21,079 bases of DNA, taken from the IMG/VR virus record IMGVR_UViG_3300032291_003389, positions 1 through 21,079 of that record; one strand, given 5' to 3'. A program made the translations under genes and the position numbers. The notes below the pieces were generated by a model. That model saw nothing but the letters and a program-made list of their open reading frames with translations, did no database searches and was not told where the DNA came from. Origin of the DNA: a virus. This document shows positions 290 to 13,292 of this stretch, piece by piece. Within the stretch, counting starts at the first letter, position 1. Every line of letters starts with the position of its first letter.

Positions 290-1786
290 ATGTCAATTTA
301 TAGGTCATATTTTAGTAGAAACAATACGTTAATTTCAAACTCAAACACTAATACAGGTAGAAATCCTGAAACAGAACTTAGTTTTGGTAGTTCAGACTAT
401 GCAATACCAAATTACGGATTTACAAGATTCATTTTCGATTTGGATTTATCAGGTTTAACCGGATTAACCGAATCTGGTGTGATTTCTAGTGAATGTAACA
501 CAGGAACTACACATTATTTAAAAATGACGAACACTTCTTCTTTTGAGGAAGATTTACTGAATACAAAAATGACCAATGGTAGAAGACGAGCAACATCTTT
601 TGACCTTATTTTATTCAGAATACCTAAGACATCAGGAGATACAGGTGAACCACAATATTGGGATGAAGGGGTCGGATACGACTTCAACGAGTTTAACTTG
701 GCAGTAAATAATAGTCAAGGGGGTGCATCACCTTTAACATACGTTGACGACAGGTCATACTCTACAAGACCATCAAATTGGTTTAAAACAACTACAGTTA
801 CAAATTGGTCAGAGAACGGAATTTACAGTAATGTAAACACAGGCATTGTAAATTATAATGATTTAGATATACTTGATACTCAACATTTTGAGTTTGGTAA
901 TGAGGACATTTATTTCAATATGACAAATGAAATAAATGGTATATTGAATGGTACAATCACAGGTACTACTGGTTGGGGTATTGCTTATATGCCGGATGTT
1001 GAGAACATAACAGGTCTAACCGAATCTTACAGTGTTGGTTTTTTCACTAAACACACCCAAACCTTTTATCAACCTTTTTTGGAAACAACATACAATGACT
1101 TAATAAAAGACAATAGAAATAATTTTATTAAAAACCAAACAAATAAATTATATCTATATGTTTATGAGAATGGTGATTTTGTTAATTTAGACTCTTCTCC
1201 AACGGTTAATATATACGACCCAAATGATGAACTAATAATACCCTCTTTGAGTAGTTGTTTGGTTACAAAAGGTGTGTATGAAATAACTGTACCGAATCAA
1301 TTAACTTCTTATAGTTCTCCTTGTGAGTTTACCGACAAATGGACAAACATTTCATTAAACGGTGAATCATTACCTGATATTACAAACACTTTTATTTTAA
1401 GAAACCCCATTAGTAGATTAACCATTGGAACCGAAACAAGAGACCCTGAAATTTTTGGGTTTGATTTCTATGGTATAAAACAAGATGAAAAAATTTTAAA
1501 TACTGATATCAGAAAAGTAGGGGTGATTATTAAAAAAGCATATACGACTCAAACTACTATCGATAACGTAGACGCTCAATATAGAATTTATGTTAAAGAA
1601 GGAACAACAGAAGTTCAGGTACAAGATTGGACTAAAATAAATAGAACTCCTAACGAATTTTATTTCATTTTTGATACGAGAGATAAAATTCCAAATCAAT
1701 ACTACGTTGATATTATGGTAAACATTAACGGACAACGAGATACTTATAAAAGAGAACTATCATTCCAAATTGTTAATAAAAAATAA
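290..1786 (+). CDS. Probable virion structural protein, beta-rich, 498 aa
   Basis: Unrecognised at family level with certainty. The protein is rich in Asn, Thr, Ser, Gly and aromatic residues with alternating beta-type patterns (for example GFTRFIFDLDLSGL near residue 43). It has no signal peptide, membrane segment or enzymatic motif that I can see. Its last ~100 residues look like one or two Ig-like beta domains (VGVIIKKAY, AQYRIYVKEG, YYVDIMVNINGQ). This composition is typical of phage tail, baseplate or neck proteins. The first gene of its unit, it follows a TATTTATA octamer, and its TAA stop overlaps the next ATG by one base (TAATG at 1784-1788), so it is translationally linked to 1786. 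Virion role is inferred from composition and context. Confidence 0.55.
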   Translation: MSIYRSYFSRNNTLISNSNTNTGRNPETELSFGSSDYAIPNYGFTRFIFDLDLSGLTGLTESGVISSECNTGTTHYLKMTNTSSFEEDLLNTKMTNGRRRATSFDLILFRIPKTSGDTGEPQYWDEGVGYDFNEFNLAVNNSQGGASPLTYVDDRSYSTRPSNWFKTTTVTNWSENGIYSNVNTGIVNYNDLDILDTQHFEFGNEDIYFNMTNEINGILNGTITGTTGWGIAYMPDVENITGLTESYSVGFFTKHTQTFYQPFLETTYNDLIKDNRNNFIKNQTNKLYLYVYENGDFVNLDSSPTVNIYDPNDELIIPSLSSCLVTKGVYEITVPNQLTSYSSPCEFTDKWTNISLNGESLPDITNTFILRNPISRLTIGTETRDPEIFGFDFYGIKQDEKILNTDIRKVGVIIKKAYTTQTTIDNVDAQYRIYVKEGTTEVQVQDWTKINRTPNEFYFIFDTRDKIPNQYYVDIMVNINGQRDTYKRELSFQIVNKK

Positions 1787-2178
1787 TGAGAAAAAGTTTA
1801 AAAGAAGAAAATATTGATTTATTGGTTCAAAAAATCAAATCAAGTTTACACGAATCAGAAAGTAACGAGGGGATTTTTGACCCAATCAAAGACGCATATA
1901 CGGGTTTAAAAGGGGTTTGGAGAGGTGAAGGATATGATTATTTCAAGTATTTAAGCTCATTAAGGTCTCAAATAAAAACTTTACAAAAATTAGACGAACC
2001 TAACAAAAAAATTTTTGGTAATTTGAATAATCTAAAACAAAAGATTCAAAGTTCTAAAATGCCACAACAAAAAAAAGACAACATAGAAAACGCAATAAAT
2101 CTCGCAATACAACATTTTGACACATATCAAAACCTTATAAACTCAATAGAAAATTTAATCACACAAAAAATAAGTTAA
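1786..2178 (+). CDS. Small helical protein with N-terminal helical module, 130 aa
   Basis: Unknown function. Residues 6-24 (EENIDLLVQKIKSSLHES) form an amphipathic helix ending in L-H-E/S and resemble the N-termini of the next two proteins and an internal stretch of the scaffold at 11733-13292. The remainder is charged and helical (residues ~55-130, rich in K, Q, N, L and I), with a short aromatic stretch GVWRGEGYDYFKYL near residue 44. The L-x-E/S pattern at residues 21-24 fits the T4 gp21 protease rule, so the first 23 residues may be a removable leader; this is inference. The start overlaps the previous stop by one base and there is no Shine-Dalgarno sequence. The next gene begins one base after this stop. 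Confidence 0.6.
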   Translation: MRKSLKEENIDLLVQKIKSSLHESESNEGIFDPIKDAYTGLKGVWRGEGYDYFKYLSSLRSQIKTLQKLDEPNKKIFGNLNNLKQKIQSSKMPQQKKDNIENAINLAIQHFDTYQNLINSIENLITQKIS

Positions 2179-2179
2179 A

Positions 2180-2761
2180 ATGGAAAAAGTAATCAGACTA
2201 ACTGAGTCAGAATTAACTAAATTAGTTAGAACAGTAATTAAAGAAAGTGAAAATGAGGTATTTGTTGCGGAAATGAATGCTGATTTAGCTGAAGTTGGGT
2301 TACCAAGAATATCTTTGGATGATTTAAATTCAGATTCTATACCTCAAGCTTTTATAGATAGTAGTATGAATTCAGACCCAAAACCTAATGAAGGTAATGA
2401 TGAAAAAGAAACCATATTTCAAAAAATTCAAAACGCAATTTGTTCTTCGGATGAAGACCAATTAAAGATTGCTAAAAAACAAATAAAAAATATCATAAAG
2501 AAGAAATTTGGAATTGGTAGGGCAATAAAAAACATTTTTGGTGGTAAGAAAAAATCTGAACAGGAACCTATGAATGAACAAGTTGAGTTGGCTGTTGCCA
2601 CAACTGTTCTTGGTGTTACTGCACCACTATGGGTTTGGGTTGCAATAGGCGCGGTTGTTCTATTTTTGATTTTAAAAAGAATCTTCCGTCGTAGAGATGG
2701 TTACGGTTGCGGAGGAAGATTAACTTTAAGACAATGGCAAAGAAAAACAGGAATATATTAA
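2180..2761 (+). CDS. Module-bearing protein with a hydrophobic segment and Arg-rich tail, 193 aa
   Basis: Unknown function. Residues 6-23 (RLTESELTKLVRTVIKES) align closely with residues 5-22 of the next protein although the rest does not match. They end in I-K-E/S, a possible gp21-type cleavage point after E22. Residues ~90-125 are strongly basic (KKQIKNIIKKK, GGKKK). Residues ~134-165 form one long hydrophobic segment (LGVTAPLWVWVAIGAVVLFLIL), followed at once by KRIFRRR and a Gly/Arg-rich C-terminus. This architecture would suit a protein that contacts membrane and nucleic acid, for example one ejected with the genome, but that is speculation. It is tightly coupled to both neighbours (1-nt and 10-nt gaps). 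Confidence 0.6.
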   Translation: MEKVIRLTESELTKLVRTVIKESENEVFVAEMNADLAEVGLPRISLDDLNSDSIPQAFIDSSMNSDPKPNEGNDEKETIFQKIQNAICSSDEDQLKIAKKQIKNIIKKKFGIGRAIKNIFGGKKKSEQEPMNEQVELAVATTVLGVTAPLWVWVAIGAVVLFLILKRIFRRRDGYGCGGRLTLRQWQRKTGIY

Positions 2762-2771
2762 AAAAATAATT

Positions 2772-3239
2772 ATGAAAATAGTAAAACTCAACGAAACAGA
2801 TTTATCAAGAATTGTCAGAAAAGTTCTTTCTGAACAAGAACACGAAAACTATATGTTCTTTTCAAACTTAGAACAAATGAGAAGACAATGTGATATTCTT
2901 TTGAATGACTTTGACCCACATATGATTGATGAAATATTATCAGGTGGTCACGATTGGGCGGCAGACCATATTTCTGAAGCAAAAAATAGTATGGACCAAG
3001 TTTTTGATTTCTTGATGAATGAGAAAGAAGGTTTTGAAGATGAACATTCCGAAGAGGTACATATGATGGAAGGAAGAAAAAAAACAGGTACTAAATTATG
3101 TTCAAGAGGTAAAGCAGCTGCTAAGGCTAAATTTAAGGTCTATCCCAGTGCTTATTCGAACGGTTTCGCGGTTCAAGTTTGTAAAGGACGTATGAAAGGA
3201 TTAGACGGAAAAAAAAGGTGTTCACCACCTTATTGTTAA
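2772..3239 (+). CDS. Module-bearing protein with basic Cys-containing C-terminus, 155 aa
   Basis: Unknown function. Residues 5-22 (KLNETDLSRIVRKVLSEQ) are the N-terminal module shared with the protein at 2180, ending in L-S-E/Q. The middle (~23-100) is acidic and helical with several His (DPHMIDEILSGGHDWAADH, EDEHSEEVH). From residue ~100 the charge flips to a basic domain with Cys110, Cys137, Cys150 and Cys155 and the stretch KFKVYPSAYSNGFAVQVCKG. I recall the K-VYPSAY-x-N...C-K-G pattern in small phage proteins, but no function is known to me. Four cysteines could bind one metal ion. Last gene of the 290 unit, it ends six bases before a strong terminator hairpin. Confidence 0.65.
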   Translation: MKIVKLNETDLSRIVRKVLSEQEHENYMFFSNLEQMRRQCDILLNDFDPHMIDEILSGGHDWAADHISEAKNSMDQVFDFLMNEKEGFEDEHSEEVHMMEGRKKTGTKLCSRGKAAAKAKFKVYPSAYSNGFAVQVCKGRMKGLDGKKRCSPPYC

Positions 3240-3244
3240 AATAT

Positions 3245-3270
3245 AAAACCCGTCAAAAGACGGGTTTTTT
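3245..3270. terminator. Bidirectional terminator between convergent genes
   Basis: Perfect 10-bp stem AAAACCCGTC / GACGGGTTTT with an AAAA loop (3255-3258). On the plus strand it ends in a T-run and closes the 290-3239 unit. On the minus strand the stem is followed by TTTTATATTTT and can close the 3272-4720 gene. Confidence 0.85.
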
Positions 3271-3271
3271 G

Positions 3272-4720
3272 TTAGAGAGCTTTTAAATTACCCTTTTTGA
3301 AATCATCAAAATTGGGCCCTTTTGTTAAAATATTTTTTTTGTTTTTTCTTTCGTAACTTAATATTCCTGCTCTAGTTGCAGATGCGAAGAATGAACTAAA
3401 GTATCCTTTAGGGTATATGGGTCCGTTTTTTCCTATGTATTCAAAACTACCATCATTTAATTTTCTTTTTGTAATTTTTCCAATATCTATTAAAAAATCA
3501 ATCGCATTCCCTTCTTTTCCACTATCGATGTAATCGACTAATTTATTAATCAAACCATCTTTCTTTTCAAATGTAAAACCATAAGACATTCTATTTGGAT
3601 ACCAAGCCTTTTTATCCCCTAATACAAAATTTTTTAAATTTTGGTCATTTTGAATAAGTCCCCATATCTTACCACTAATGCGATTGCAATAACTATTAAA
3701 AGGACTTCCCATATCACCTGGAGATGAAATTGGGAAATTGGCAACCGCAATGTTAATACGCCAAAGATTTTCTATCTCAACCGGTGGTTCAAAATCATCA
3801 TTGGGTTGGTATCCAATATCTGAATCTAACATACTATCTGAAAGGTGATAAGAAATCATTAATGTTCCCTCTTCAATTTTTTGCTCATCCTCTTCCCAAC
3901 CGAAAAAAATCTTGAAATCAATTTCCGCCATATCCTTATCAATAATTCGAGGATTTGAAAAATCAAATGTTAATGGTTTTTTTGAAGATAAAAGATTTTT
4001 AGTAACAATTACGTGATAACTATTATTACTATCAAAAAGTTTGTATAGGTTTTTAGTTGTATGTTTTGAAAAATCTTCTTCTATTTTTTGATTTGCAGTT
4101 TTTCCCAAACCGACTTTTAAAATATCAACTTCTCGGGGTGGCATTACTGTATCTTGAGCATCATACCAAGTTTCTTCTCTCGGTGTTTTGTGTAACGCAA
4201 TCTTATAGAACTTATTTGATATGTCGAAGTCTTTCATTATCAAATAATAGAGAACATTATCACCCGTTGAATATTTTTCAAAATAACCTGGTGATGATTG
4301 TGTTGTACACCATTTTGTTCCCATACCATACTTACAAGACGCTGCGTGACTTGTTGGTTTAACAATTAAAATCCTATTATCCTCGTAAATTTTTTCAGCT
4401 TCCGATTCTATTTTTTTTCTTTGGGATTTAGAACCATAATCTTCTATTGCCGCTTTTAACTCAACGACATCAGGATATTGGTTGATATCTTTAATTTCCA
4501 AGTTCTTACCAACTCGGTCAAATTGTTTAACCAATTCCAATACTTCCATCGCTAACGGAAGTGAGTTGAATTCTAATTTCTTTAGTATCCAATCAGCGTA
4601 TTTGTAATTACTTGATTTTATGAAGGGGTCATTTAATACGGCATCCAAAACTGAGATATCAAAATCCGCCATATATTTTTTCAATATGTCTTCCCTTCTT
4701 CCTTCGAAAATATAGTTCAT
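3272..4720 (-). CDS. Phage protein with YGxGTKWCT motif, 482 aa, function unknown
   Basis: I recognise the motif style but not the function. The N-terminus starts MNYIFEGRREDIL, then a helical region of ~120 residues. A compact segment around residues 120-175 contains SHAASCKYGMGTKWCTTQ, then YFEKYSTGDNVLYYLIMKD and KIALHK. Phage proteins with a conserved C.YG.GTKWCT stretch followed by a Y..LYYII-like strand are common in large phages and remain uncharacterised to my knowledge. The C-terminal half is mixed alpha/beta without clear motifs. The I-F-E/G at residues 4-7 resembles a gp21 site, but this is weak. It is a single-gene unit: a TATTTATT octamer sits 11 nt before its ATG, and it lies between terminators at 4749-4766 and 3245-3270. 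Confidence 0.65.
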   Translation of the reverse strand: MNYIFEGRREDILKKYMADFDISVLDAVLNDPFIKSSNYKYADWILKKLEFNSLPLAMEVLELVKQFDRVGKNLEIKDINQYPDVVELKAAIEDYGSKSQRKKIESEAEKIYEDNRILIVKPTSHAASCKYGMGTKWCTTQSSPGYFEKYSTGDNVLYYLIMKDFDISNKFYKIALHKTPREETWYDAQDTVMPPREVDILKVGLGKTANQKIEEDFSKHTTKNLYKLFDSNNSYHVIVTKNLLSSKKPLTFDFSNPRIIDKDMAEIDFKIFFGWEEDEQKIEEGTLMISYHLSDSMLDSDIGYQPNDDFEPPVEIENLWRINIAVANFPISSPGDMGSPFNSYCNRISGKIWGLIQNDQNLKNFVLGDKKAWYPNRMSYGFTFEKKDGLINKLVDYIDSGKEGNAIDFLIDIGKITKRKLNDGSFEYIGKNGPIYPKGYFSSFFASATRAGILSYERKNKKNILTKGPNFDDFKKGNLKAL

Positions 4721-4723
4721 ATA

Positions 4724-4731
4724 AATAAATA
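4724..4731 (-). promoter_or_regulatory. TATTTATT octamer before the 482-aa protein gene
   Basis: On the minus strand GTATTTATTTAT runs into the ATG at 4720, with 11 nt from the first T of the octamer to the ATG. It begins 18 bases downstream of the terminator that closes the FKBP gene, as expected of a new transcription start. Confidence 0.45.
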
Positions 4732-4748
4732 CTTCTTATAATAAAAAA

Positions 4749-4766
4749 ACCCCTCAGAAGAGGGGT
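4749..4766 (-). terminator. Terminator of the FKBP gene
   Basis: Stem ACCCCTC / GAGGGGT with a 4-nt loop. On the minus strand it is followed by seven T residues. It lies about 30 nt past the stop codon at 4797. Confidence 0.85.
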
Positions 4767-4796
4767 CCAAGTAATCATTTTCGAATGTTTACTAAA

Positions 4797-5225
4797 TCAA
4801 TTTTTGATTTCCACAACCTCCAAATCAAAAAATAATTTTTTACCCGCCAATGGATGATTTGCATCAATCTTAATCATATCTTCACTTATACCCATAACTT
4901 TAACTCTAACAGGTCCCATTGCACTTTGTGCAGAAAGAATATCACCTTCTTGTACTGTTTCAGGGAATTGAGATTTTGGAATATCAAAAATCATTTCACT
5001 TCTGTATTCACCATAAGCATCAGTCGGCTCAATCTCAATGGTCTTTTTTTCACCAGCGGTCATTTCCATCAAACCACTTTCAAACCCTGGAATTACTTGT
5101 TTTGCACCAATTTTAACCTCAATTGGTTCTCTTCCTTCAGTAAGCGATGTATCAAAGATTTCACCGTCTTCAAATTTACCTGTGTAATTTACAATTACTA
5201 AATCGTTGTCTTTTACTTTTTGCAT
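4797..5225 (-). CDS. SlyD-type FKBP peptidyl-prolyl cis-trans isomerase, 142 aa
   Basis: Catalyses proline isomerisation and, in this family, acts as a folding chaperone. FKBP core residues are visible: VNYTG (12-16, Tyr14), FDTS (24-27, Asp25), VIPGFESGL (44-52) and the strand GEKKTIEIEP. Residues ~66-119 form the insert-in-flap (IF) region, including DAYGEYRSEMIFDIPKSQFP and EGDILSAQ. The C-terminal NHPLAGKKLFFDLEV (from residue 123) is the classic SlyD signature. The protein lacks the His/Cys-rich metal-binding tail of E. coli SlyD. No signal peptide, so cytoplasmic. It is followed by its own terminator and has no octamer upstream; the leader is A-rich without a Shine-Dalgarno sequence. 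Possible clients are phage structural proteins, which is inference. Confidence 0.92.
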   Translation of the reverse strand: MQKVKDNDLVIVNYTGKFEDGEIFDTSLTEGREPIEVKIGAKQVIPGFESGLMEMTAGEKKTIEIEPTDAYGEYRSEMIFDIPKSQFPETVQEGDILSAQSAMGPVRVKVMGISEDMIKIDANHPLAGKKLFFDLEVVEIKN

Positions 5226-5275
5226 TTTAATTTTTTTTTAAACATAAAACATTAATTTTGGTAAATCAATAACTA

Positions 5276-5283
5276 TATTTATA
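5276..5283 (+). promoter_or_regulatory. TATTTATA octamer before the 5292 gene
   Basis: TATTTATA on the plus strand, 16 nt before the ATG at 5292, in the 66-nt divergent gap shared with the FKBP gene. No minus-strand copy is present here for the FKBP gene. Confidence 0.45.
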
Positions 5284-5291
5284 TTTGTGTT

Positions 5292-5705
5292 ATGGAAAAC
5301 TTGAAATTAAACGGATACATACCAAGATTATTATTTAAAATCTATATTAACCTAAAAAATAGATTTGACCCCCAAACTCCAATTAAAGAAGAAGAATTGT
5401 TGTGTTTTGAAATCTGTAAAAAAACAATATTCACACCCAATTCAAAACTGACTATGGCGCCTCTTTCAAATAAGAGGTTTATTAAAAGTGATGAAAATGA
5501 TATGTTTATTGTGATTCACAATAGAATTGTTTCAATAATAAATCACGTATACAGTTACAATGTCTATATCGAAAAAGACGATGTTTATGAAGAATTGATT
5601 AAAACTTTTGATGAAGAGTTAGAAAAAAGAAGGGAAGAATTAGAGAACGAGATAAAGAGTAATATCAAACATTCACTTCAAAATATATTGAATAGACTTA
5701 GTTAA
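5292..5705 (+). CDS. Hypothetical protein, 137 aa
   Basis: Unrecognised. Residues 1-60 are mixed (LKLNGYIPRLLFKIYINLKNRF; FEICKKTIFTPNSKLTMAPLSNKRFI), the centre is hydrophobic and beta-like (DMFIVIHNRIVSIINHVYSYNVYI), and residues ~95-137 are a charged coiled-coil-like helix (DEELEKRREELENEIKSN). No catalytic motif, signal peptide or membrane segment. It is a single-gene unit preceded by an octamer, and its 3' end overlaps the convergent gene at 5698 by 8 bp with no terminator between them. The intact frame, motif-bearing start and ordinary codon usage support a real gene. Confidence 0.65.
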   Translation: MENLKLNGYIPRLLFKIYINLKNRFDPQTPIKEEELLCFEICKKTIFTPNSKLTMAPLSNKRFIKSDENDMFIVIHNRIVSIINHVYSYNVYIEKDDVYEELIKTFDEELEKRREELENEIKSNIKHSLQNILNRLS

Positions 5706-6417
5706 AGTTTTCTCTCAATATTTTCAATATAGTTTCCTTTAAAGTTTTTTTGGGTTTGTAAGAAACCATTGTTGGTTCGTTACCTGTACCAACTTTTGGT
5801 GATTTCTTTTCCTCTCTTCTTTTTTGAGCACAAGCTGCTCTTTTTTCTGAATCACTCATTTTTGCAGCAACTCCTGCGGCTCTACATTTTGGATAACCTT
5901 TTGAATCAGCTTCAGGTCTTCCGCAAGGCGGGTGACCACCACCCTCTTTTTTTCTACATATATTTACCCAAGGACCTTTTGGTTGTTTACTACCTTTTGG
6001 TTTCTTTTTGGTTCCAAACCAAACCGCCAAATCCTCTTTCACTAAAACATTTTCATATTCCGATTTGGGAATGTGAGCTGATTTTTTTATATAATCAGGA
6101 GTACCAGGTTCTTTATTTCCCATAGGGTTGTAACCATTAAATGGATTTCCATCTTCATCATTTTGAGAAAACATTTTTTGTGTCATTTTAGCCATTTTGA
6201 TTGCCATTTTTTCGAGTTTTTCAATTTCTTCTTTTGACTTATCCATATGACCATCATAACTATCGTAAGCGTTTTCTGCACTTACATATTGAGATACAGG
6301 TGTATTAAAAGGCTCCAAAGTTTCTTTTTGCCAAATGTGAGGAGCTAAGTTTAGTGGAACTCTAAAGTTACCAACCATACCCGCTCCAGTTGCTTCACTT
6401 AATCTTTTTTTATTCAT
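5698..6417 (-). CDS. Basic Cys-containing phage protein, 239 aa
   Basis: Unknown function. The N-terminus (NKKRLSEATGAGMVGNFRVPLNLAPHIW) has an L-S-E/A site at residues 6-9 that fits the gp21 cleavage rule. A helical region follows (~60-82, EEIEKLEKMAIKMAKMTQKM). Residues ~137-205 form a basic domain: GPWVNICRKKEGGGHPPCGR, YPKCRAAGVAAKMSD, ACAQKRREEKK, with Cys154, Cys165, Cys178 and Cys197 plus His162, so metal binding is plausible. I recall this PWVNIC...CGR...YPKCR arrangement from other phage proteins without an assigned function. The C-terminus KKTLKETILKILRENFN resembles the helical module seen at other N-termini in this window. It has its own octamer 15 nt upstream and is convergent with 5292. 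Confidence 0.65.
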   Translation of the reverse strand: MNKKRLSEATGAGMVGNFRVPLNLAPHIWQKETLEPFNTPVSQYVSAENAYDSYDGHMDKSKEEIEKLEKMAIKMAKMTQKMFSQNDEDGNPFNGYNPMGNKEPGTPDYIKKSAHIPKSEYENVLVKEDLAVWFGTKKKPKGSKQPKGPWVNICRKKEGGGHPPCGRPEADSKGYPKCRAAGVAAKMSDSEKRAACAQKRREEKKSPKVGTGNEPTMVSYKPKKTLKETILKILRENFN

Positions 6418-6424
6418 ATATTTC

Positions 6425-6432
6425 TATAAATA
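6425..6432 (-). promoter_or_regulatory. TATTTATA octamer before the 5698-6417 gene
   Basis: On the minus strand TATTTATA stands 15 nt before the ATG at 6417, in a 31-nt divergent gap. The plus gene at 6449 has only a looser version (TATTTTAA at 6431-6438, 18 nt upstream). The plus-strand reading TATAAATA equals the T4 late promoter core, so the direction of action is ambiguous here. Confidence 0.4.
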
Positions 6433-6448
6433 TTTTAAAATTCAGAAA

Positions 6449-6667
6449 ATGGAAGAAAAACAACCAATAGGATACTTATTCGAATCAATTGCGATTTATG
6501 ATATGAATTCAGTTGAAATGTTTGTTGATAATTTAAATGCTCAACAAGCAACATATGTCATAATGCAGGCCTTGGAGATGGCAAATAAAAAAGGAATATA
6601 TTCTCTTAGAGAATCTGAGATTCTTTCAAAATCTCTCAGAATATTAGAAAAACCCCCCACTCAGTAG
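6449..6667 (+). CDS. Small conserved-looking protein, 72 aa
   Basis: Function unknown. Compact helical protein with the pattern VEMFVDNLNAQQATYVIMQALEMANKKGIYSLRESEILSKSLRIL, split here as a first helix (residues ~22-30), a second (~32-48) and a third after the turn GIYSL (~50-66). I recall similar small phage proteins with a Y/F-(S/T)-hxExExhSKxhR ending, but no role. The last codons (P-P-T-Q-stop) lie inside the terminator stem at 6649-6678, so the stop codon sits in the hairpin loop. It is a single-gene unit, divergent from 5698-6417. Confidence 0.65.
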   Translation: MEEKQPIGYLFESIAIYDMNSVEMFVDNLNAQQATYVIMQALEMANKKGIYSLRESEILSKSLRILEKPPTQ

Positions 6668-6678
6668 TAGGGGGTTTT
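6649..6678. terminator. Bidirectional terminator overlapping the end of the 72-aa gene
   Basis: Stem AAAACCCCC (6649-6657) / GGGGGTTTT (6670-6678). The plus-strand copy leads to a T-rich tract. The minus-strand copy follows the stop of the synthetase-like gene at 6685, and the four A before the stem supply T residues on that strand. The hairpin includes the stop codon (6665-6667) of the plus gene. Confidence 0.8.
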
Positions 6679-6684
6679 AATTTT

Positions 6685-7512
6685 TTACACCAATTCGAGT
6701 TTTTCACTCTTCATCATCTCATACGCTCTTGCAAGTCTTGTTAGACCAATACCACCACCAAATCTTGGAAAAAACTTATGAGTTAAAAACTCCTCAAGTT
6801 CTTTTTCAACTCTTTCTTTACCAAATAGTTCAAAAAGTTTTTCACAATATTTTCCATCTTCGATAGAATAGAAATTATTTCTCATTTGCACAACATCACA
6901 ACTTCTTTCTGCACTTCCTATTGTTTCCTGCCCATATAATATAACATCTATTTTATTGAATACATTTCCATCAACCGATTTCATATTCCAAAAAGGATTT
7001 GTTCTTAAAGGGAAATTTTGTAGAGATACAACAGAACCAATTTCTTTCCAAATTTTGGTTTCGTGTTCATTTTCCAAAATTTTAGTTTCATACTCCAAAC
7101 ACATTCTGTCATAATCAACTGCAATTGGTTTATCAAATCCCAAAAACTCCAATAGTTCTTTTTCCAAACTTTCCAAAACAAGCATATCACCCCTGCTTTC
7201 AAATTCAAACATTGGAAAAATCATTTCGTGTCTACCCTCGATTGGGGTTTTTTCTTGACGATAAGATGTTGATACGCAAAACACACCTGGCCAAGTTGGA
7301 TTTTTTAATAATTCATACTCCAACCACATTTGTCCTGTTTGAGGTAAAGGCCAAATCTGACCTTGATACTCAAAGGTTGCAATTGAATGCGGGTTTTCAC
7401 AAGCAGCCAAAATTGATAATCTTGATTGAGTTGGGACCTCAATAAATCCTTTTTTAATGAAGAAAGTTCTCATTTTTTGAACAAGTTCATCGTACACTTT
7501 TGTTTGTTTCAT
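6685..7512 (-). CDS. Stand-alone class II aminoacyl-tRNA-synthetase-like enzyme (Asx/Lys type), 275 aa
   Basis: Carries the catalytic fold of the Asp/Asn/Lys class II synthetases without an N-terminal OB-fold anticodon-binding domain. From the ATG at 7512 I see: KKGFIEVPTQSRL (motif 1 region); SYRQEKTPIEGRHEMIFPMFEFE (motif 2 with its Arg and Glu, written here in two parts: SYRQEKTPIEGRHE and MIFPMFEFE); an ETIGSAERSCD strand like the amino-acid-binding E-x-x-x-G-x-x-R of Asx enzymes; and GGGIGLTRLARAYE (motif 3 with the ATP-binding Arg). All core residues appear intact, so it likely makes an aminoacyl-adenylate. Relatives of this size include archaeal asparagine synthetase (AsnRS paralogue) and EpmA-type protein modifiers; a truncated tRNA ligase is the other option. 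An upstream in-frame TTG at 7569 falls in a terminator hairpin and is rejected as start. Confidence 0.8.
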   Translation of the reverse strand: MKQTKVYDELVQKMRTFFIKKGFIEVPTQSRLSILAACENPHSIATFEYQGQIWPLPQTGQMWLEYELLKNPTWPGVFCVSTSYRQEKTPIEGRHEMIFPMFEFESRGDMLVLESLEKELLEFLGFDKPIAVDYDRMCLEYETKILENEHETKIWKEIGSVVSLQNFPLRTNPFWNMKSVDGNVFNKIDVILYGQETIGSAERSCDVVQMRNNFYSIEDGKYCEKLFELFGKERVEKELEEFLTHKFFPRFGGGIGLTRLARAYEMMKSEKLELV

Positions 7513-7552
7513 TTTTTGTTTTTTATGGTTTATTTTATTTAAATTTATGAGC

Positions 7553-7580
7553 AAAAAAAATCCCTTCAAAATAGAAGGGA
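7553..7580 (-). terminator. Intrinsic terminator upstream of the synthetase-like gene
   Basis: Stem TCCCTTC (7561-7567) / GAAGGGA (7574-7580), loop of 6 nt, followed on the minus strand by eight T residues (7560-7553). It is directed to the minus strand and lies 41 nt before the ATG at 7512. The stop codon of a 26-codon ORF (7566-7646) is inside the hairpin. Confidence 0.75.
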
Positions 7581-7646
7581 ATTAAAATAATTTATAATGT
7601 ATAATACGTTTCGGCTATAAATAAAGTTTCGAAATTTTTCCAACAT
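7566..7646 (-). CDS. Candidate 26-aa leader or small protein
   Basis: ATG at 7646 opens a 26-codon frame beginning MLEKFRNFIYSRN and ending NYFNSLLF, with TGA at 7568-7566 inside the terminator hairpin. Four of 26 residues are Asn (7, 13, 19, 22). A TATTTATT octamer stands 12 nt before the ATG, the same spacing as for the TerL gene. Its placement before a gene related to asparagine activation suggests a leader peptide, but AT-rich DNA easily produces Asn codons and I see no alternative antiterminator pairing. It could also be a free-standing small protein, or not translated. Confidence 0.3.
   Translation of the reverse strand: MLEKFRNFIYSRNVLYIINYFNSLLF
7616..7623 (-). promoter_or_regulatory. 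Second TATTTATA octamer upstream of the synthetase-like gene
   Basis: On the minus strand it falls inside the 26-codon ORF, 111 nt before the ATG at 7512. If it is a promoter, the transcript would reach the terminator at 7553-7580 after roughly 50 nt. Confidence 0.3.
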
Positions 7647-7650
7647 CAAA

Positions 7651-7658
7651 AATAAATA
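7651..7658 (-). promoter_or_regulatory. TATTTATT octamer before the 26-codon ORF
   Basis: 12 nt from its first T to the ATG at 7646 on the minus strand, within the spacing range seen for clear genes. Confidence 0.35.
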
Positions 7659-7683
7659 TACACTTTAACAAAAAAAAACTAAA

Positions 7684-7691
7684 TAAATTTG
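7684..7691 (+). promoter_or_regulatory. Possible Bacteroidota-type -7 element (TAAATTTG)
   Basis: TAAATTTG matches the published Bacteroidota -7 consensus TAnnTTTG. It lies 49 nt before the ATG at 7733. No convincing -33 TTTG is visible at the expected distance. The gene lacks the phage octamer, so a host-type promoter would make sense. Confidence 0.3.
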
Positions 7692-7732
7692 GTTTGTTTT
7701 ATTTTTTTTTCTACCTTGTAAAAAAATTAATT

Positions 7733-8137
7733 ATGAAATACATTTTATCCATTTTTATTCTTTTCTTGTCAACTTTAACTTATTCACAAAATTTTGTTGA
7801 GATTTCAATTAAAAAGACAAAAGAAGAAATGTTTCAAGACACGACATTAGTTAGCATTGCAAAAGAATGTCACGTAGATTTGTCGAAATACACCGTCTTA
7901 TCTCTTAGCAAAATAATTGATACAATAAATTTTTACGAAACACATAAATATAATTGCAGAATTGTAAAACAAGAAATTTATTTTACAAAAAAAGATGACG
8001 TTTCATTCCGTTTTTATGAAAAAACAAATAATGAAACGTCAAAAAAAAGAATTAATGAAAAATTTATATTTTGTTATATTTCAAAACAAAAAAATTCCAA
8101 TAACAAATATGAAATGTTTTTATATAGAATTGAGTAA
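7733..8137 (+). CDS. Small secreted protein with signal peptide, 134 aa
   Basis: Unknown function. The start is taken as the ATG at 7733, because the longer frame begins with TTG at 7694 and would put 13 residues before a perfect signal peptide. Residues 1-19 are MKYILSIFILFLSTLTYSQ: a Lys, a hydrophobic core, then T-Y-S-Q, the usual Bacteroidota cleavage context. The mature part (~115 aa) is mixed and Lys-rich, with Cys at about residues 45, 69 and 113, and no lipobox. Context: it stands alone between divergent and convergent phage genes, without an octamer but with a host-like -7 element, and its codon use is even more A-rich than neighbours. It could be a moron-type gene acting in the periplasm or envelope (for example superinfection exclusion), which is inference. 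Confidence 0.7.
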   Translation: MKYILSIFILFLSTLTYSQNFVEISIKKTKEEMFQDTTLVSIAKECHVDLSKYTVLSLSKIIDTINFYETHKYNCRIVKQEIYFTKKDDVSFRFYEKTNNETSKKRINEKFIFCYISKQKNSNNKYEMFLYRIE

Positions 8138-8139
8138 AA

Positions 8140-8682
8140 TTACTTAGGAATTGATTGGTTTGTTGGTATTGAACCAAGAACTCTTGCAGTCATTGATTCA
8201 TATCTTTTACCCAATCCAATTTTACCGGCAAGACCCTTTTTACTTCTTTTGGTTTTGCTGGTAATTCCCATTTTAACCCATACCAAACCTTTATTATTCT
8301 CATCATAAGTTGGAACATAAACCAAATTAGGATTATCGTTCATAAATTCTTTGTTTAAAGGTCCTACCCACTCTTCATATGGGCTAACATAACCAACTTT
8401 AGTAACCAACCAATTAGGATTACTTTCAATTTCATTTTTTGAAGGTACTCCAAATACTTTTGTCATATTTTGAATTTGAACACTAAGTCCATCAGATTCA
8501 CTGTAAATACCTTTAACCAATCCAACGGTTGTTTGTCCAAATCCACCCTCTTTTAATGCAGGAAAACTAAACGAATAATCCTGTTCTTTCAATAAATAAA
8601 GTTTTTTGGTCGCACTTTCGTGTAGTGACAAAATTCTTTGTCTTTCTTCTTGGTCAACTTCAAACATTTTCTTTTTCAACAT
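8140..8682 (-). CDS. Phage protein with two leader-like (L)xE sites, 180 aa
   Basis: Unknown function. The N-terminus reads FEVDQEERQRILSLHESATK then KLYLLKEQDYSF. The RILxLHExATK...EQ pattern is one I recall at the start of otherwise unrelated phage proteins. It contains L-H-E/S (E22) and L-K-E/Q (E33), both fitting the gp21 cleavage rule. The body (~40-150) is beta-rich (GFGQTTVGLVKGIYSESDG, LVTKVGYVSPYEEWVGPL, LVYVPTYDENNKGLVWVKMG), and the tail is strongly basic (TSKTKRSKKGLAGKIGLGKRYE). An alternative start is the second Met at 8667. It has an octamer 23 nt upstream in a palindromic divergent region, and ends 2 bp from the convergent 7733 gene with no terminator. Confidence 0.65.
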   Translation of the reverse strand: MLKKKMFEVDQEERQRILSLHESATKKLYLLKEQDYSFSFPALKEGGFGQTTVGLVKGIYSESDGLSVQIQNMTKVFGVPSKNEIESNPNWLVTKVGYVSPYEEWVGPLNKEFMNDNPNLVYVPTYDENNKGLVWVKMGITSKTKRSKKGLAGKIGLGKRYESMTARVLGSIPTNQSIPK

Positions 8683-8697
8683 AAATTATATTTTAAT

Positions 8698-8705
8698 AAT
8701 AAATA
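8698..8705 (-). promoter_or_regulatory. TATTTATT octamer before the 8140-8682 gene
   Basis: Minus-strand copy 23 nt before the ATG at 8682; left arm of the divergent palindrome. Confidence 0.45.
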
Positions 8706-8709
8706 TCAA

Positions 8710-8717
8710 TATTTATT
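8710..8717 (+). promoter_or_regulatory. TATTTATT octamer before the 8732 gene
   Basis: Plus-strand copy 22 nt before the ATG at 8732; right arm of the divergent palindrome. Confidence 0.45.
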
Positions 8718-8731
8718 ATAAATGTTGAGTT

Positions 8732-9100
8732 ATGGAAAATTTACTTTCTTTAACTTGGTACGTCGAGTCTCCAATTGACTTTGAACACAAACAATATGTT
8801 CTGTGGGTTTATTTGCAAAAAGTTGACGTTAGTTTTCTAAAAAAAGAATTATCTCCTCACCTCCTTTATATGGAAAGACTTATTGACGAATTACATTTCT
8901 TCAACAGTGCATTTACAATGATTAAAAGTGATTTTGACAAACACAGATATGTCTTTTTTGAAAATGTGAAGTTGGAAGGTGAAGATAATAAATTCATCTA
9001 CGAAATAAGAGATATTGTGGACTTTGCAATACCACAAGTAGAATCCCGAATAAAAACAGGTTATAAAATCTTCGAAAGAAACAAACAAATTCTATATTAG
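8732..9100 (+). CDS. Hypothetical protein, 122 aa
   Basis: Unrecognised. Opens MENLLSLTWYVESPIDFEHK, then helical segments (YVLWVYLQKVDVSFLKKEL; LLYMERLIDELHFFNSAF) rich in aromatic residues, and ends basic (SRIKTGYKIFERNKQILY). No signal peptide, membrane segment or catalytic motif. The style (MEN start, short, one-gene unit with octamer, overlapping its convergent neighbour) is the same as for the 137-aa protein at 5292, but the sequences do not match. Its end overlaps the endonuclease gene by 9 bp. I believe it is conserved in related phages but cannot verify this. Confidence 0.6.
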   Translation: MENLLSLTWYVESPIDFEHKQYVLWVYLQKVDVSFLKKELSPHLLYMERLIDELHFFNSAFTMIKSDFDKHRYVFFENVKLEGEDNKFIYEIRDIVDFAIPQVESRIKTGYKIFERNKQILY

Positions 9101-9781
9101 AATCTTATTTGATTTTCTGATATTCTCGTCCGCCCACATAGGTTGAAGGTTTTCCAAGCTCCAACATCTTATAAACTCATTATCTCCGATTTCTTGGAAG
9201 TTAAATGCGGTGATTGGAGTAATGTGGTCAACGTGCCATTCACCGTAATTTTCCCACGTCATACCCTCTGAGAATTGATTTTCCAAGTGAGTTGCAAGTT
9301 CTTCAGGAGAATATTGTAATATCTCAAAATAATGACCGTATTTGTTCAGGTTATTTTCTTTTAGTACAGTCCATATTGCGGTTCTGAAATTGGCTACGAG
9401 TTTGTATAGGGGGTCGTTTGCTTTTCTTGTTTTTTCGTAGTTTCTTTTATTTTCTCTGTGTTTATCAATATTTTTTTCTCTCCATTCTTTGTGGTACTGA
9501 TTTAAATAATCTCTTTTATTTTCAGACCATTTTTTGTGATTGTTCTTCAATCGTTCTTTAGTTTCAGGTTTAGAAAAATATTTTTTAGTTGCAACTTCTC
9601 TACCACCAATATATCTTCTTCCTGAAGGTCCTAATTTAACACCATTTTCTTTAAGAATTCTATTAATTGTTGGCTTACTAATACCCATTTTTAATGATAT
9701 GGTCGGGGTACCTAATAATTCTTCATTATACATTTTCAAAATAATATCTAACTCTTCTTTTTTTAATTCTATCTTTTTCAT
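9092..9781 (-). CDS. HTH-HNH homing-type endonuclease, 229 aa
   Basis: A free-standing site-specific DNA endonuclease, probably a mobile homing-type gene. Residues ~20-47 form a helix-turn-helix (PTISLKMGISKPTINRILKE) that may contribute to DNA recognition. Residues ~65-120 are a very basic linker (repeated K/R-N-K/R patterns). The C-terminal HNH domain has EWHVDHITPI (H183, D185, H186), FNF and CWSLENLQPMWADENIRKSNK with N201, the usual HNH layout. It sits directly downstream of the capsid gene terminator but has its own octamer 11 nt before the ATG, so it is expressed separately. A gene next to a conserved head gene is a common home for such elements. Confidence 0.88.
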   Translation of the reverse strand: MKKIELKKEELDIILKMYNEELLGTPTISLKMGISKPTINRILKENGVKLGPSGRRYIGGREVATKKYFSKPETKERLKNNHKKWSENKRDYLNQYHKEWREKNIDKHRENKRNYEKTRKANDPLYKLVANFRTAIWTVLKENNLNKYGHYFEILQYSPEELATHLENQFSEGMTWENYGEWHVDHITPITAFNFQEIGDNEFIRCWSLENLQPMWADENIRKSNKILI

Positions 9782-9784
9782 AAT

Positions 9785-9792
9785 TATAAATA
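9785..9792 (-). promoter_or_regulatory. TATTTATA octamer before the HNH endonuclease
   Basis: Minus-strand CTATATTTATAATTATG, 11 nt from the first T of TATTTATA to the ATG at 9781. It follows the capsid-gene terminator at 9840-9863. Confidence 0.45.
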
Positions 9793-9832
9793 TAGAACAT
9801 TTTTCCGAAAAATCAATTGTTTTGTTGAAAAA

Positions 9833-9863
9833 ATAAAAAAAGGAGACAATTTCTTGTCTCCTT
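9833..9863 (-). terminator. Terminator of the major capsid protein gene
   Basis: Perfect 10-bp stem AAGGAGACAA (9840-9849) / TTGTCTCCTT (9854-9863) with a 4-nt loop. The minus-strand T-run (TTTTTTTATTTTTTC) follows. It lies 23 nt past the capsid stop codon. Confidence 0.9.
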
Positions 9864-9885
9864 AAGTTTATTTTTAAAAGATTGA

Positions 9886-11697
9886 TTATCTCAATTCTCT
9901 TAAATCAAATGTACGAACACCATCAACTGTAATACGTCCGTAAAAACGGTTGTTCACCATCTTTTTTGCGTATCTCGTCATAATACCCTTGATTGGAGTA
10001 AAGTTGAACGGATTGTACATTGTAGGAGTTAATTGTAGAGGTACATACGGTGCGTAGATGTAACCTGTGTCTAACAATGAAGTTCCTTTGTGTCCCAACA
10101 AAATTTGGTTTGGTGGGAAGTAAGGGTCACGATAAACTTGGTAACGACCAGCTAAAGTACCTACTCTTTCAATACCCATATTGTATTGGTCCTGCTCAGG
10201 AGCTGCGTTTGAAACGTGGAAATACTCCAAGTCATCAAATACTGCACTGATTTCAGAAGAAACCACAATCCAGTTAGCACCACCTCTCAAAGTTGATTTG
10301 TGGATTTGAGCTGAAATTTGGTTGATTGCTGTAATCAATGTTTGGTTCCAGTCTTTCTGAGTGTAAGGAATAGCGTTTCCTCCGAGTCTCTTCCATCCGT
10401 TGTAATCCCAACGTAAATTCCAAGCTGCACCTTTTCTAAGGTCACGAAGGATTTCACGGTCGATTTCAGCCGCAACCTGCTCTGACAACAATGCTGTCAA
10501 TTCAGCTTCAGCGTCAATGTTGTGGAATGCCGCAACGTCTTGAGCCATTTCAGGAGACCATTGTGCTCTCAACTTTCTTTCAGTTACAGAAACTGTAACA
10601 GACTGAAGGTCAAAAGATACCTCACCGATTCTATCTTCGAATTCCATATTCTTGTAAACTCTGTAAGTTGCTCCGAAAGCTACGTATGGGTTAGACAATA
10701 CTGCCGCCAAAGTAGTTGAGAAACCTGAGTAACCGTCAAGTGAGTTTGCACCTACGTTACAAGGAACTTGTAAGTCTACCTCAAGATAAATCTTACCATC
10801 TGCACTACAGATATTATCGTAAGCACCACCATTACCTGTTGTAGGGAATGAAGTTGTTGTTTGACTACCGTACTGAACGATACCTTTACCGTATTTCTGA
10901 GTTACAACTCTGAATAACAAAGGACCCGCACCGAAGTTTGCGTCTGTAGTAACACCTGAGAATGCGGCACCAACAGCAGTTCTAGCACTAACTTGTAAAT
11001 CTGAAAGGAAAGATTCATTATCCATTGTTTGACCATCAGGACCGATTAATTTACCAGCTCCGCCAGATGCGAAACCTGATAAAGAGATTAATACTTTTCT
11101 GTAGTTACCTGGACCGTAACCTGAAGTTACTAAGTCGCCTGCACTCCATACAACAGTATCAACCGACGCACTAATTGCAGAAAACTGACCTTTAGAATAG
11201 TCGAATAAACCTGGAGGGTCAAGAGCCGGTTCGCCACCTTCGTAGAATCTGTCATACAAATTCTTGTCAGTGTTATAGTTGTAACCATCACCAGGTGCTC
11301 CTGTTGGGTTGTTTGGAGAACCTACAGGTGCTCTGTGTTGACCCGGATTTGTAGTTTCATACCCTTGGATATTTGGTACGAAGTAGAACAACTTACCGAT
11401 TGGAAGGTTCATAGCTTGTACAGAAACGATGTCGTTAGCCAACAACTTAGAGAATACTCTACGTACGATTGGGAAAACTACAGTTTCGAAAGAACCTGAG
11501 TCAGATGTTGATGATGCTTCGTTAATCAACCAAGAAGCTTGGTTTTCATATAACTGAGCAACGTTTTCTTTTAGGTGGCCTTTAAGACCTTCGAGGAACC
11601 CTAATTTGTCCCATTTGTTGATTGTGTCTTCTTTGATAACTTTAAGGTGCTTAAGACCGATGTTACCAACGAGACCTGATTCTAATAATGCTCCCAT
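9886..11697 (-). CDS. Major capsid protein, T4 gp23-like, 603 aa
   Basis: Forms the hexamers of the head shell. The N-terminal region KENVAQLYENQASWLINEAS, followed by FPIVRRVFSKLLANDIVSVQAMNLPIGKLFYFVP, is the gp23-family signature (given here in parts). The predicted prohead-protease site is I-N-E60/A61, close to the T4 site after E65, leaving ~543 mature residues. The centre carries a family-variable Gly/Ala/Ser-rich insertion (~100-330). The C-terminal part has conserved SPEMAQDVAAFHNIDAEAEL, GGANWIVVSSEISAVFDDL and a YAPYVPLQLTPTMYNPFNF stretch. T4 gp23 is 521 aa, so this one is larger. Its GC content and codon use look less AT-rich than neighbours, as expected for a highly expressed gene. 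No octamer is visible upstream; probably transcribed with the scaffold gene. Confidence 0.95.
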   Translation of the reverse strand: MGALLESGLVGNIGLKHLKVIKEDTINKWDKLGFLEGLKGHLKENVAQLYENQASWLINEASSTSDSGSFETVVFPIVRRVFSKLLANDIVSVQAMNLPIGKLFYFVPNIQGYETTNPGQHRAPVGSPNNPTGAPGDGYNYNTDKNLYDRFYEGGEPALDPPGLFDYSKGQFSAISASVDTVVWSAGDLVTSGYGPGNYRKVLISLSGFASGGAGKLIGPDGQTMDNESFLSDLQVSARTAVGAAFSGVTTDANFGAGPLLFRVVTQKYGKGIVQYGSQTTTSFPTTGNGGAYDNICSADGKIYLEVDLQVPCNVGANSLDGYSGFSTTLAAVLSNPYVAFGATYRVYKNMEFEDRIGEVSFDLQSVTVSVTERKLRAQWSPEMAQDVAAFHNIDAEAELTALLSEQVAAEIDREILRDLRKGAAWNLRWDYNGWKRLGGNAIPYTQKDWNQTLITAINQISAQIHKSTLRGGANWIVVSSEISAVFDDLEYFHVSNAAPEQDQYNMGIERVGTLAGRYQVYRDPYFPPNQILLGHKGTSLLDTGYIYAPYVPLQLTPTMYNPFNFTPIKGIMTRYAKKMVNNRFYGRITVDGVRTFDLRELR

Positions 11698-11732
11698 TTT
11701 TTTATAGGTTTTTATTTGGTTTATTTAATTTT

Positions 11733-13292
11733 TTAACTAATCTTACCCATCAAATCCTTAATTCTCATAAACTGAGGATTTTCATAAGTTTTTGACTCAA
11801 TAAGAGTAGTTGATGAACCTGTAGAAACTGATTTGTTTAATTTTGTTTCAACAGACTCATTGATTGGTTTAGCTTCAACTTGATTCAAATCGTCTTTGAT
11901 TGACTTGTAAAGAGATTTTGACTCTTTTAAAGTTTCAACTCCGTCAAATCTGCGAAGAATGTTTATTTTTTCTTTCTTAGTAGTTGAATGTTCAGTGAAA
12001 AGTCTTGTTGCGTAAGCTAAATTGGAGTTGAAAATTGCAACTTCATTTAATTTCTCTCTAAACACGTTAAGTGCTTTTCTGTACTCTTCATTCTTCTCTC
12101 TCAACATACTAACTTCTGCTTCTAAAGCTTCGAATTTTAAATTTCTGTTTGGTGTAATACCTTTTCTTAATCCTCTTCCTGATTCTGAACCCATACCGTA
12201 AGTACGAGAAGCTTCTTTGGTTTCCATTTTCTTAACGGACTTCATTTCGCCTTCCATATTTTCACCTTTTTTGTAGATGAATTTAGGCTTACCTGTTCCC
12301 ATCATTTTTGGACCTTCTTTTTTCTTCACATCGAACCCGCCCGTAGTTTTCTCATAAGAGAATTTAGGACCGTGTCCAACTTTACCTTTAGGTTTAATGG
12401 ATTTCATAGATTCTTTAGTTTCAGACTTCTTCATTCTTTTGTGACTGTAAGCTTCTTGAACTGTGTCATCAAAACCTCCATCACCAAAAGTTTGGTCGAT
12501 GTCGTCATCTTCTTCCATTTCGATTTCATAGACAACTTCTGTATCAGACATATCACCGTCTTCTTCAAGACCTTTGATACCATACATACCGGTCATATCG
12601 TCGTCCTCATCTAGACCTTCGATACCGTACATACCTGTCATATCGTCGTCCTCATAGAGTTCGTCAGTTGCAAAAGCACCTGGTGCATCCATTTCGTCCA
12701 TTACGATTTCATAGACAACATCAGTTTCTTCAGAACCAAAGTCAGTATCGAATTCTGATGTATTTACAGGTTTTTCACTAAAAATAGCGTCAACAACTGC
12801 GTCAACATCTTCATCATCAACTTCATCTAATTCGTTCATAGAACTAAATTCTTCCATTGACTCACCCAATTTAATTAGGTATTCACTGTCGGTTTCATTA
12901 TCTGTTAAATGAATGTCATCACCATCTTTTTTGATGATAATTCCATCTTCTTCTCCCATAGCTTTGAAAACCTTAAGAATTTCTTCGTCTGAAGCACCTG
13001 TCAAATCGATAGTTTCTTCGTCAGAGTCATCGTCATCGTCAGAATCTTCGTCGTCCGAATCCATTTTATCAGTATCCATTTCGTCTGCATCAGGCATTTC
13101 CATACCAACAGCACCCATTTCAACGTCATCGTCGTCATCCTCTTCTTGTTCAGAAAGTGATTCTTTTACCAATTGACTGATTTCTTCCTTCATAGTAGAA
13201 GCAAGTATTCCTTTTGCATTTTCAGAGATAACTTCTTCAACTTGTTTCATTTGTAGAAGTGCCTCTTCGGCTAACGATTTTTTTTCGTGCAT
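11733..13292 (-). CDS. Acidic prohead scaffold/core protein, gp22-like, 519 aa
   Basis: Likely internal scaffold of the prohead, as it lies directly upstream of the capsid gene where T4 has gene 22. Residues 51-120 and 150-275 are extremely acidic (long runs of D and E). Residues ~213-245 hold a 15-aa tandem repeat (EDDDMTGMYGIEGLD, two copies plus a partial). Residues ~280-380 are basic (KGKVGHGPKF, KKKEGPKMMGTGKPKF). From ~388 a coiled coil (KFEALEAEVSMLREKNEEYR) leads into FREKLNEVAIFNSNLAYATR, the most gp22-like part. Several (L/I/V)-x-E sites followed by S, N or Q (E24, E44, E48, E457, E479, E499) fit digestion by gp21. Nearly twice the length of T4 gp22 (269 aa). Two octamers lie upstream. 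Confidence 0.78.
   Translation of the reverse strand: MHEKKSLAEEALLQMKQVEEVISENAKGILASTMKEEISQLVKESLSEQEEDDDDDVEMGAVGMEMPDADEMDTDKMDSDDEDSDDDDDSDEETIDLTGASDEEILKVFKAMGEEDGIIIKKDGDDIHLTDNETDSEYLIKLGESMEEFSSMNELDEVDDEDVDAVVDAIFSEKPVNTSEFDTDFGSEETDVVYEIVMDEMDAPGAFATDELYEDDDMTGMYGIEGLDEDDDMTGMYGIKGLEEDGDMSDTEVVYEIEMEEDDDIDQTFGDGGFDDTVQEAYSHKRMKKSETKESMKSIKPKGKVGHGPKFSYEKTTGGFDVKKKEGPKMMGTGKPKFIYKKGENMEGEMKSVKKMETKEASRTYGMGSESGRGLRKGITPNRNLKFEALEAEVSMLREKNEEYRKALNVFREKLNEVAIFNSNLAYATRLFTEHSTTKKEKINILRRFDGVETLKESKSLYKSIKDDLNQVEAKPINESVETKLNKSVSTGSSTTLIESKTYENPQFMRIKDLMGKIS
12566..12655. repeat. 45-bp in-frame tandem repeat in the scaffold gene
   Basis: Two copies of a 45-bp unit, the identical segment CATATCGTCGTCCTCAT recurring exactly 45 bases apart (ending at 12610 and 12655), with few substitutions. 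A decayed third copy (EDGDM) follows. Each unit encodes EDDDMTGMYGI(E/K)GL(D/E). Confidence 0.85.

Follow-up and report, generated by a model that had tools for sequence, protein, structure and literature searches.

The window analysed here, the whole 21,079-bp stretch of the uncultured virus fragment IMGVR_UViG_3300032291_003389, encodes on its minus strand a head module of the T4 type, surrounded by genes for small proteins. Several of these proteins begin with a short leader ending in (I/L)-x-E, and comparative sequence analysis indicates that such leaders are probably capsid-targeting propeptides, which in the class termed leader 1 mimic the scaffold of the phage and which would be cut by the S77 prohead protease inside the prohead. 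A first-pass annotation of the window had proposed T4-like capsid-targeting leaders cleaved after this motif, and of the explanations considered this one has the most support: the leaders recur on unrelated proteins and stop at the site, their helix recurs in the scaffold, and they are found in phages that encode an S77 protease and a gp23-type capsid. The logic of the T4 capsid-targeting sequence (CTS) explains most of the features seen. The searchable literature, which took in few subscription papers and preprints, yielded neither the leader strings nor an earlier account of them, and the claim of novelty is provisional.

Leader 1 was first compared in a set of 80 relatives selected by their protease. 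In these relatives, the N-terminus of open reading frames (ORFs) 2180 and 2772 recurs with the consensus M-K-K-I-V-K-L-T-E-x-D-L-x-R-I-V-K-K-V-L-x-E-Q. The window encodes the following examples:

1786 to 1854, plus strand: degenerate leader 1, residues 1-23 of ORF 1786-2178, with a cut predicted after LHE23; four homologues carry canonical leader 1
2180 to 2245, plus strand: leader 1, residues 1-22 of ORF 2180-2761, with a cut predicted after IKE22; profile match, at least 85 cargo families
2772 to 2834, plus strand: leader 1, residues 1-21 of ORF 2772-3239, with a cut predicted after LSE21; E21 in 35/35, AlphaFold model

All of the ORFs and candidate-site residues listed in the first-pass annotation are present. 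Its IKE22/S and LSE21/Q sites belong to leader-1 proteins, and in the ORF 2772 family E21 is invariant (35/35) and preceded by L, I, or M. The AlphaFold model of this protein has a helix at residues 8-20 followed by a linker. Its LHE23/S site in ORF 1786 is borne out by the homologues in L017, L173, L175, and L133, which carry canonical leader 1 at this place, with the site of the degenerate window copy lying about three residues further on. In L017, leader 1 is repeated nearly letter for letter on two unrelated neighbours, which are homologues of ORFs 2772 and 1786. A DNA pattern scan located leader 1 in at least 120 viral contigs, and nearly all of the matches listed begin 3-7 codons past an ATG, ahead of very different proteins. 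When the sequences behind the leader were clustered by BLAST, at least 85 mutually unrelated cargo families were obtained, and up to 13 leader-1 proteins occur in one record (G007, 296 kb).

The extent of the shared sequence was measured as pairwise identity by position in 79 leader-1 families that are unrelated past the leader, among the matches listed. Identity is 0.90 at V14, 0.54 at I/L15, then 0.27, and 1.00 at E17, which is the P1 residue. Past the predicted cut, it is 0.32 at P1′ (mostly Q) and then 0.05-0.09. Similarity among these families ends no more than one residue from the predicted cut. Because the first pattern had imposed the glutamate, a second scan used a pattern ending ahead of the site. 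Of the 68 leaders with cargo in this site-free scan, every one has glutamate at P1; P3 is I or L in 64, and P1′ is Q in 50.

Neither leader 1 nor leader 2 (described below) was present in 69 random viral contigs, and 11 random large viral records held no leaders. Across 257 Gb of bacterial and archaeal genomes, the leader-1 pattern gave only two matches. One of these is an internal match, and the other is a 53-aa ORF with canonical leader 1 (L202:2157-2327) near host-like genes on a 164-kb contig from a Bacteroidota metagenome-assembled genome, which is possibly a phage remnant. No isolated phage was matched by tblastn with leaders of 23-25 residues, a result that shows little because the queries are short and partly repetitive. 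A profile search of six named relatives, including Flavobacterium phage immuto, Rhodothermus RM378, and Microcystis phage Mel-JY01, returned one weak leader-1-like N-terminus (LR756508), and no related loci were obtained with the whole 2180 protein as the query.

An indirect link between leader 1 and head assembly comes from the scaffold protein. In addition to a large terminase (PF03237), the minus-strand head module includes the following genes:

16471 to 18270, minus strand: gp20-type portal protein (PF07230, E 4e-78)
14299 to 15012, minus strand: prohead protease (Peptidase_S77, gp21-like; PF03420, E 4e-23), with its own ILE8/A near the N-terminus (53/56)
11733 to 13292, minus strand: scaffold protein, with the shared helix and LSE48/Q at 13149-13193, followed by an acidic stretch
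9886 to 11697, minus strand: gp23-type major capsid protein (PF07068, E 2e-70), with propeptide residues 1-60 at 11518-11697

The first-pass annotation had noted a scaffold segment resembling the small proteins. This segment, residues 34-49 (MKEEISQLVKESLSEQ), is kept across relatives and carries the leader-1 helix with the same L-S-E/Q site. When the leader-1 profile was compared with 242 windows from the scaffold, capsid, and protease alignments, the scaffold helix was the best match (pairwise E ~5e-5), in register with E-Q. The helix is present in 17 of 17 further leader-bearing records examined and in none of three leaderless records with S77 and gp23. The scaffold site is kept in G006 and G017, although an insertion has shifted it (to KKVIKE/Q and TKLRE/Q, respectively). 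The acidic stretch after the helix is also found in T4 gp67.

The capsid protein and the protease carry sites of the same type, as had been predicted. The capsid site INE60/A has E and A in 25 of 25 sequences and I or L at P3 in 24 of 25, and it aligns residue for residue with E65/A66 of T4 gp23, the position at which the T4 protein is cut. A cut there is consistent with the reported 65-residue gp23 propeptide (PMC9026906). In the protease, the E and I/L of ILE8/A are retained by 53 of 56 family members, and the site is comparable to LIE-9 of T4 gp21, a possible self-cleavage site (PMC9026906). Among 34 large leader-bearing records, 23 encode both S77 and gp23 and nine encode neither; in the other two (G003 and G015) one is present and the other runs off the contig end. 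Three of the 11 random large records have both genes, and none of these has a leader.

The N-terminus of ORF 8140 is distinct and defines leader 2, whose consensus is M..LFxIxEEExxRILxLHESATKxxYLxEQ:

8584 to 8682, minus strand: leader 2, residues 1-33 of ORF 8140-8682, with a cut predicted after LKE33; at least 23 cargo families, gp23 adjacency

Leader 2 precedes at least 23 cargo families by BLAST clustering, three of which are shared with leader 1 among the matches listed. Of 90 leaders among the matches listed, 66 have an [IL]xE at the corresponding position, compared with 9.6 in shuffles. Two sites had been nominated in this protein. The cargo boundary falls at LKE33/Q, whose terminal site is retained even in variants that lack HE (...MHSGKKNVISEQ and ...NLHLNEQ), but LHE22 is lost in those variants and is not the boundary. 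Leaders 1 and 2 converge on (I/L)-x-E-Q. The leader-2 gene adjoins gp23 in many records, and in eight of them (G001, G002, G004, G005, G018, G029, G030, and G031) its start is no more than about 250 bp from the gp23 match. In the window, this order is broken by an Endonuclease VII/HNH-like gene (phrog_1035; 9092-9781, minus strand) located between gp23 and the leader-2 gene. In T4, segD likewise adjoins gene 23.

A third leader, MKITKSQLKQIIKEEL, was tested as well. It is carried by at least 166 distinct proteins in at least 132 unrelated families. Among the matches listed, 122 of 172 have [ILM]xE with the E at positions 18-26, compared with 30 in shuffled tails (maximum 46). Large records with this leader encode S77 in 14 of 17 cases and gp23 in 13 of 17, including all those of at least 190 kb. 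The third class is independent, behaves like leaders 1 and 2, and marks other T4-type jumbo phages (L423-L542 and G046-G062), with up to six matches to the pattern within 7.6 kb (L499). A gene located between the protease and the scaffold in many of these records starts with a helix of similar kind (e.g. MGITKNQLKLIVKECLVEILAE/G). An N-terminal helix is likewise present in their scaffolds, where in several cases it ends in (I/L)-x-E-Q, but the likeness between leader and scaffold appears weaker than for leader 1.

Other window proteins carry shorter candidate propeptides, internal sites, or tags at other positions:

3069 to 3071, plus strand: second candidate site, E100/G, inside ORF 2772, between its N-domain and a Cys-rich C-domain
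4703 to 4720, minus strand: short candidate propeptide IFE6/G of ORF 3272-4720, suggested by homologues' starts
6394 to 6417, minus strand: short candidate propeptide LSE8/A of ORF 5698-6417 ([IL]-x-E/A in 32/32)
6034 to 6036, minus strand: internal candidate site E128/D of ORF 5698-6417, with V at P3 in the window
5701 to 5748, minus strand: C-terminal helix tag KTLKETILKILRE/NFN of ORF 5698-6417 (E 30/31, I/L 30/31)

The predicted LSE8/A site of ORF 5698 is invariant in its family, with I or L at P3, E at P1, and A at P1′ in all 32 sequences. At the internal junction of this protein, E and D are present in 32 of 32 and I or L at P3 in 31 of 32, and the shorter homologues L080 and L154 begin there. 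Its C-terminal tag is replaced by, or continuous with, leader 1 in four relatives, at the C-terminus in L031 and L154 and between two domains in L151 and L157. In L043, the helix tag is gone from the C-terminus and is present at the N-terminus. Homologues of ORF 3272 start with ...LIQE/G, ...LLNE/G, or ...ILIE/S, and L172 has leader 1 instead. The E100 site of ORF 2772 has E in 35 of 35 sequences, mostly I or M at P3, and G at P1′ in 33 of 35; it lies in a region (93-106) that is disordered in the AlphaFold model, with a predicted local distance difference test (pLDDT) score below 50. The model as a whole (pLDDT 72) had no PDB match, and that of ORF 5698 (pLDDT 52) was unusable. The first-pass annotation is upheld on the shared helix and corrected in two respects: the leader of ORF 8140 belongs to a class of its own, and the helix tag is found beyond N-termini, at the C-terminus in the 5698 family and between domains in some relatives. 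Leader 1 is also internal in L101, L168, L178, L034, and L019, where it separates two domains of one ORF in the manner of a polyprotein junction. We considered loss of E from C-terminal tags as proof of cleavage and rejected it: three extreme C-terminal copies of leader 1 lack E, but the 5698-family tag keeps it in 30 of 31.

In T4, CTS propeptides of 10-19 residues direct internal proteins into the core, and gp21 takes them off after L/I-X-E; a D at P1 prevents the cut but leaves targeting intact (PMC9026906). Like the IPI-III and Alt arrangement, that of the window has an N-terminal propeptide common to divergent proteins and closing with L/I-x-E, and the phage likewise encodes an S77 protease, a scaffold, and gp23 (PMC9026906, PMC3012670). 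Here, leaders 1 and 2 stand on unrelated mature proteins in the numbers given above, the short propeptide ends in the motif when the site is not imposed, and a gp21-type protease is encoded by the window and by 24 of 34 leader-bearing records. Unlike the T4 leaders, those described here are about 21-33 residues long, fall into at least two classes in one phage, serve far more cargo families with more copies per record, are sometimes C-terminal or internal, and in the case of leader 1 copy the scaffold helix. Their sequence also appears to differ from that of the T4 internal protein leaders, and likeness to those leaders is not required for function. The N-terminal layout of the window scaffold matches that of T4 gp67, where a helix-like segment is followed by LIE/G and an acidic stretch, but differs from gp67 and gp22 in forming the start of one large scaffold whose helix is reused as a tag elsewhere. 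In phiKZ and SPN3US, many head proteins and ejected proteins are likewise trimmed by a divergent relative of gp21, which cuts after a short motif that ends in Glu (PMC9026906; PMC5694885, PMC10052503). At the level of the head protease, the relationship to these phages is only a distant one.

Presumably, the short amphipathic helix, which in leader 1 imitates the phage's own scaffold helix, would bring the tagged protein into the prohead core as that core assembles. Once activated in the closed prohead, the S77 protease would then cut after the (I/L)-x-E with which the helix ends, so that the cargo is freed within the head when the scaffold and capsid are also cleaved. On the T4 example, part of the freed cargo or more would probably enter the host with the DNA. 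We infer core binding, packaging, cleavage, and ejection from different sources: direction into the core from the helix shared with the scaffold, leader removal in the maturing head from the equivalence of the capsid site with the T4 cut, and ejection of the mature protein from the example of T4.

Several observations weigh against this mechanism. Part of the preference for glutamate at P1 could reflect its place at the end of the helix, tags are in some cases C-terminal or internal, and the scaffold helices of G016 and G033 lack a clean (I/L)-x-E. One record with 11 leaders (G021, 214 kb) shows neither S77 nor gp23, being either a fragment or a true exception. Neither tblastn on isolates nor the profile search of six relatives turned up a cultured relative that bears these leaders. 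Most cargo families have no match, and several of the recognisable ones are peptidoglycan-binding, LysM, or phage lysozyme-like proteins, with an alpha/beta hydrolase also represented. The cell-wall-related cargoes could also suit lysis or tail roles, and one possibility is that they are head-borne enzymes that aid DNA entry. These cargoes, and the C-terminal and interdomain tags, would also be expected if the helix were a general docking or dimerisation tag for another structure (tail, baseplate, membrane, or replication body), with the terminal Glu serving as a helix cap and nothing being cut. We regard this as improbable, because homology between unrelated leaders ends exactly at the protease consensus, the site outlasts insertions and deletions in the helix, the scaffold has the same helix, and leader-2 genes adjoin gp23.

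A somewhat stronger contender, though still an unlikely one, accepts the targeting and holds that the cargo proteins are core or scaffold components, which would be degraded and then either remain in the head or exit it, without delivery to the host. T4 gp67 and gp68 are core proteins of this kind (PMC9026906), and the further internal sites in ORFs 2772 and 5698 fit such a role. However, the cargo is hugely diverse, differs between relatives, and includes enzyme-like folds, and is therefore what would be expected of delivered effectors rather than of a structural core. That the sites are chance matches in Glu-rich N-termini now seems scarcely credible. The motif is indeed short, as the first-pass annotation cautioned, and six of 20 other window genes have one in their first 40 residues (3.5 expected). 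The nominated proteins exceed expectation, with sites in six of six against 1.4 expected, but they were picked after looking, and the raw count within the window was therefore set aside as too weak and post hoc. It is the comparison with relatives that is decisive: the cargo families, the site-free scan, and the boundary test are strong, and the latter two already contradict chance.

Close relatives of the window are abundant in IMG/VR (protease 81% identical, at least 600 loci). Isolated phages are distant, with less than 60% identity everywhere; judged by the capsid, the nearest are Flavobacterium phage immuto and a Microcystis phage. A host from the Bacteroidota is plausible. The head operon has an ICEA-family protein (PF05315, E 1.7e-37; 13691-14284, minus strand), probably a mobile endonuclease, inserted between the scaffold and the protease. 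Elsewhere on the minus strand, the window encodes a class II aminoacyl-tRNA-synthetase-like core (6685-7569; PF00152, E 1e-10; phrog_29758, E 3e-96), possibly an asparagine-synthesis or tRNA-related enzyme, and an FKBP-type peptidyl-prolyl isomerase (4797-5225; PF00254, E 2e-20). The cargo of ORF 2180-2761 has a hydrophobic segment directly past MNE/Q, and it is conceivable that the product is an ejected protein that inserts into a membrane.

Scaffold mimicry might represent a general packaging code, a proposal for and against which we see about equal weight. Each T4-type lineage, including jumbo phages, would have its own helix tag, either derived from its prohead core or matched to it, plus (I/L)-x-E, with which twelve or more effectors, a set that turns over quickly, are loaded into the head for delivery. 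If this is true, the delivered set of any such genome could be listed from its sequence. The handful of head-packed proteins in T4 came from biochemistry, whereas here hundreds of uncharacterised proteins of uncultured and jumbo phages gain a probable fate (packaged, trimmed, and delivered) from sequence. The match to the scaffold helix makes the recruitment of cargo to T4-type cores directly testable, and the leaders suggest portable tags for loading proteins into the heads of non-model phages. The unannotated part of aquatic phage genomes would thereby become a testable list of delivered proteins.

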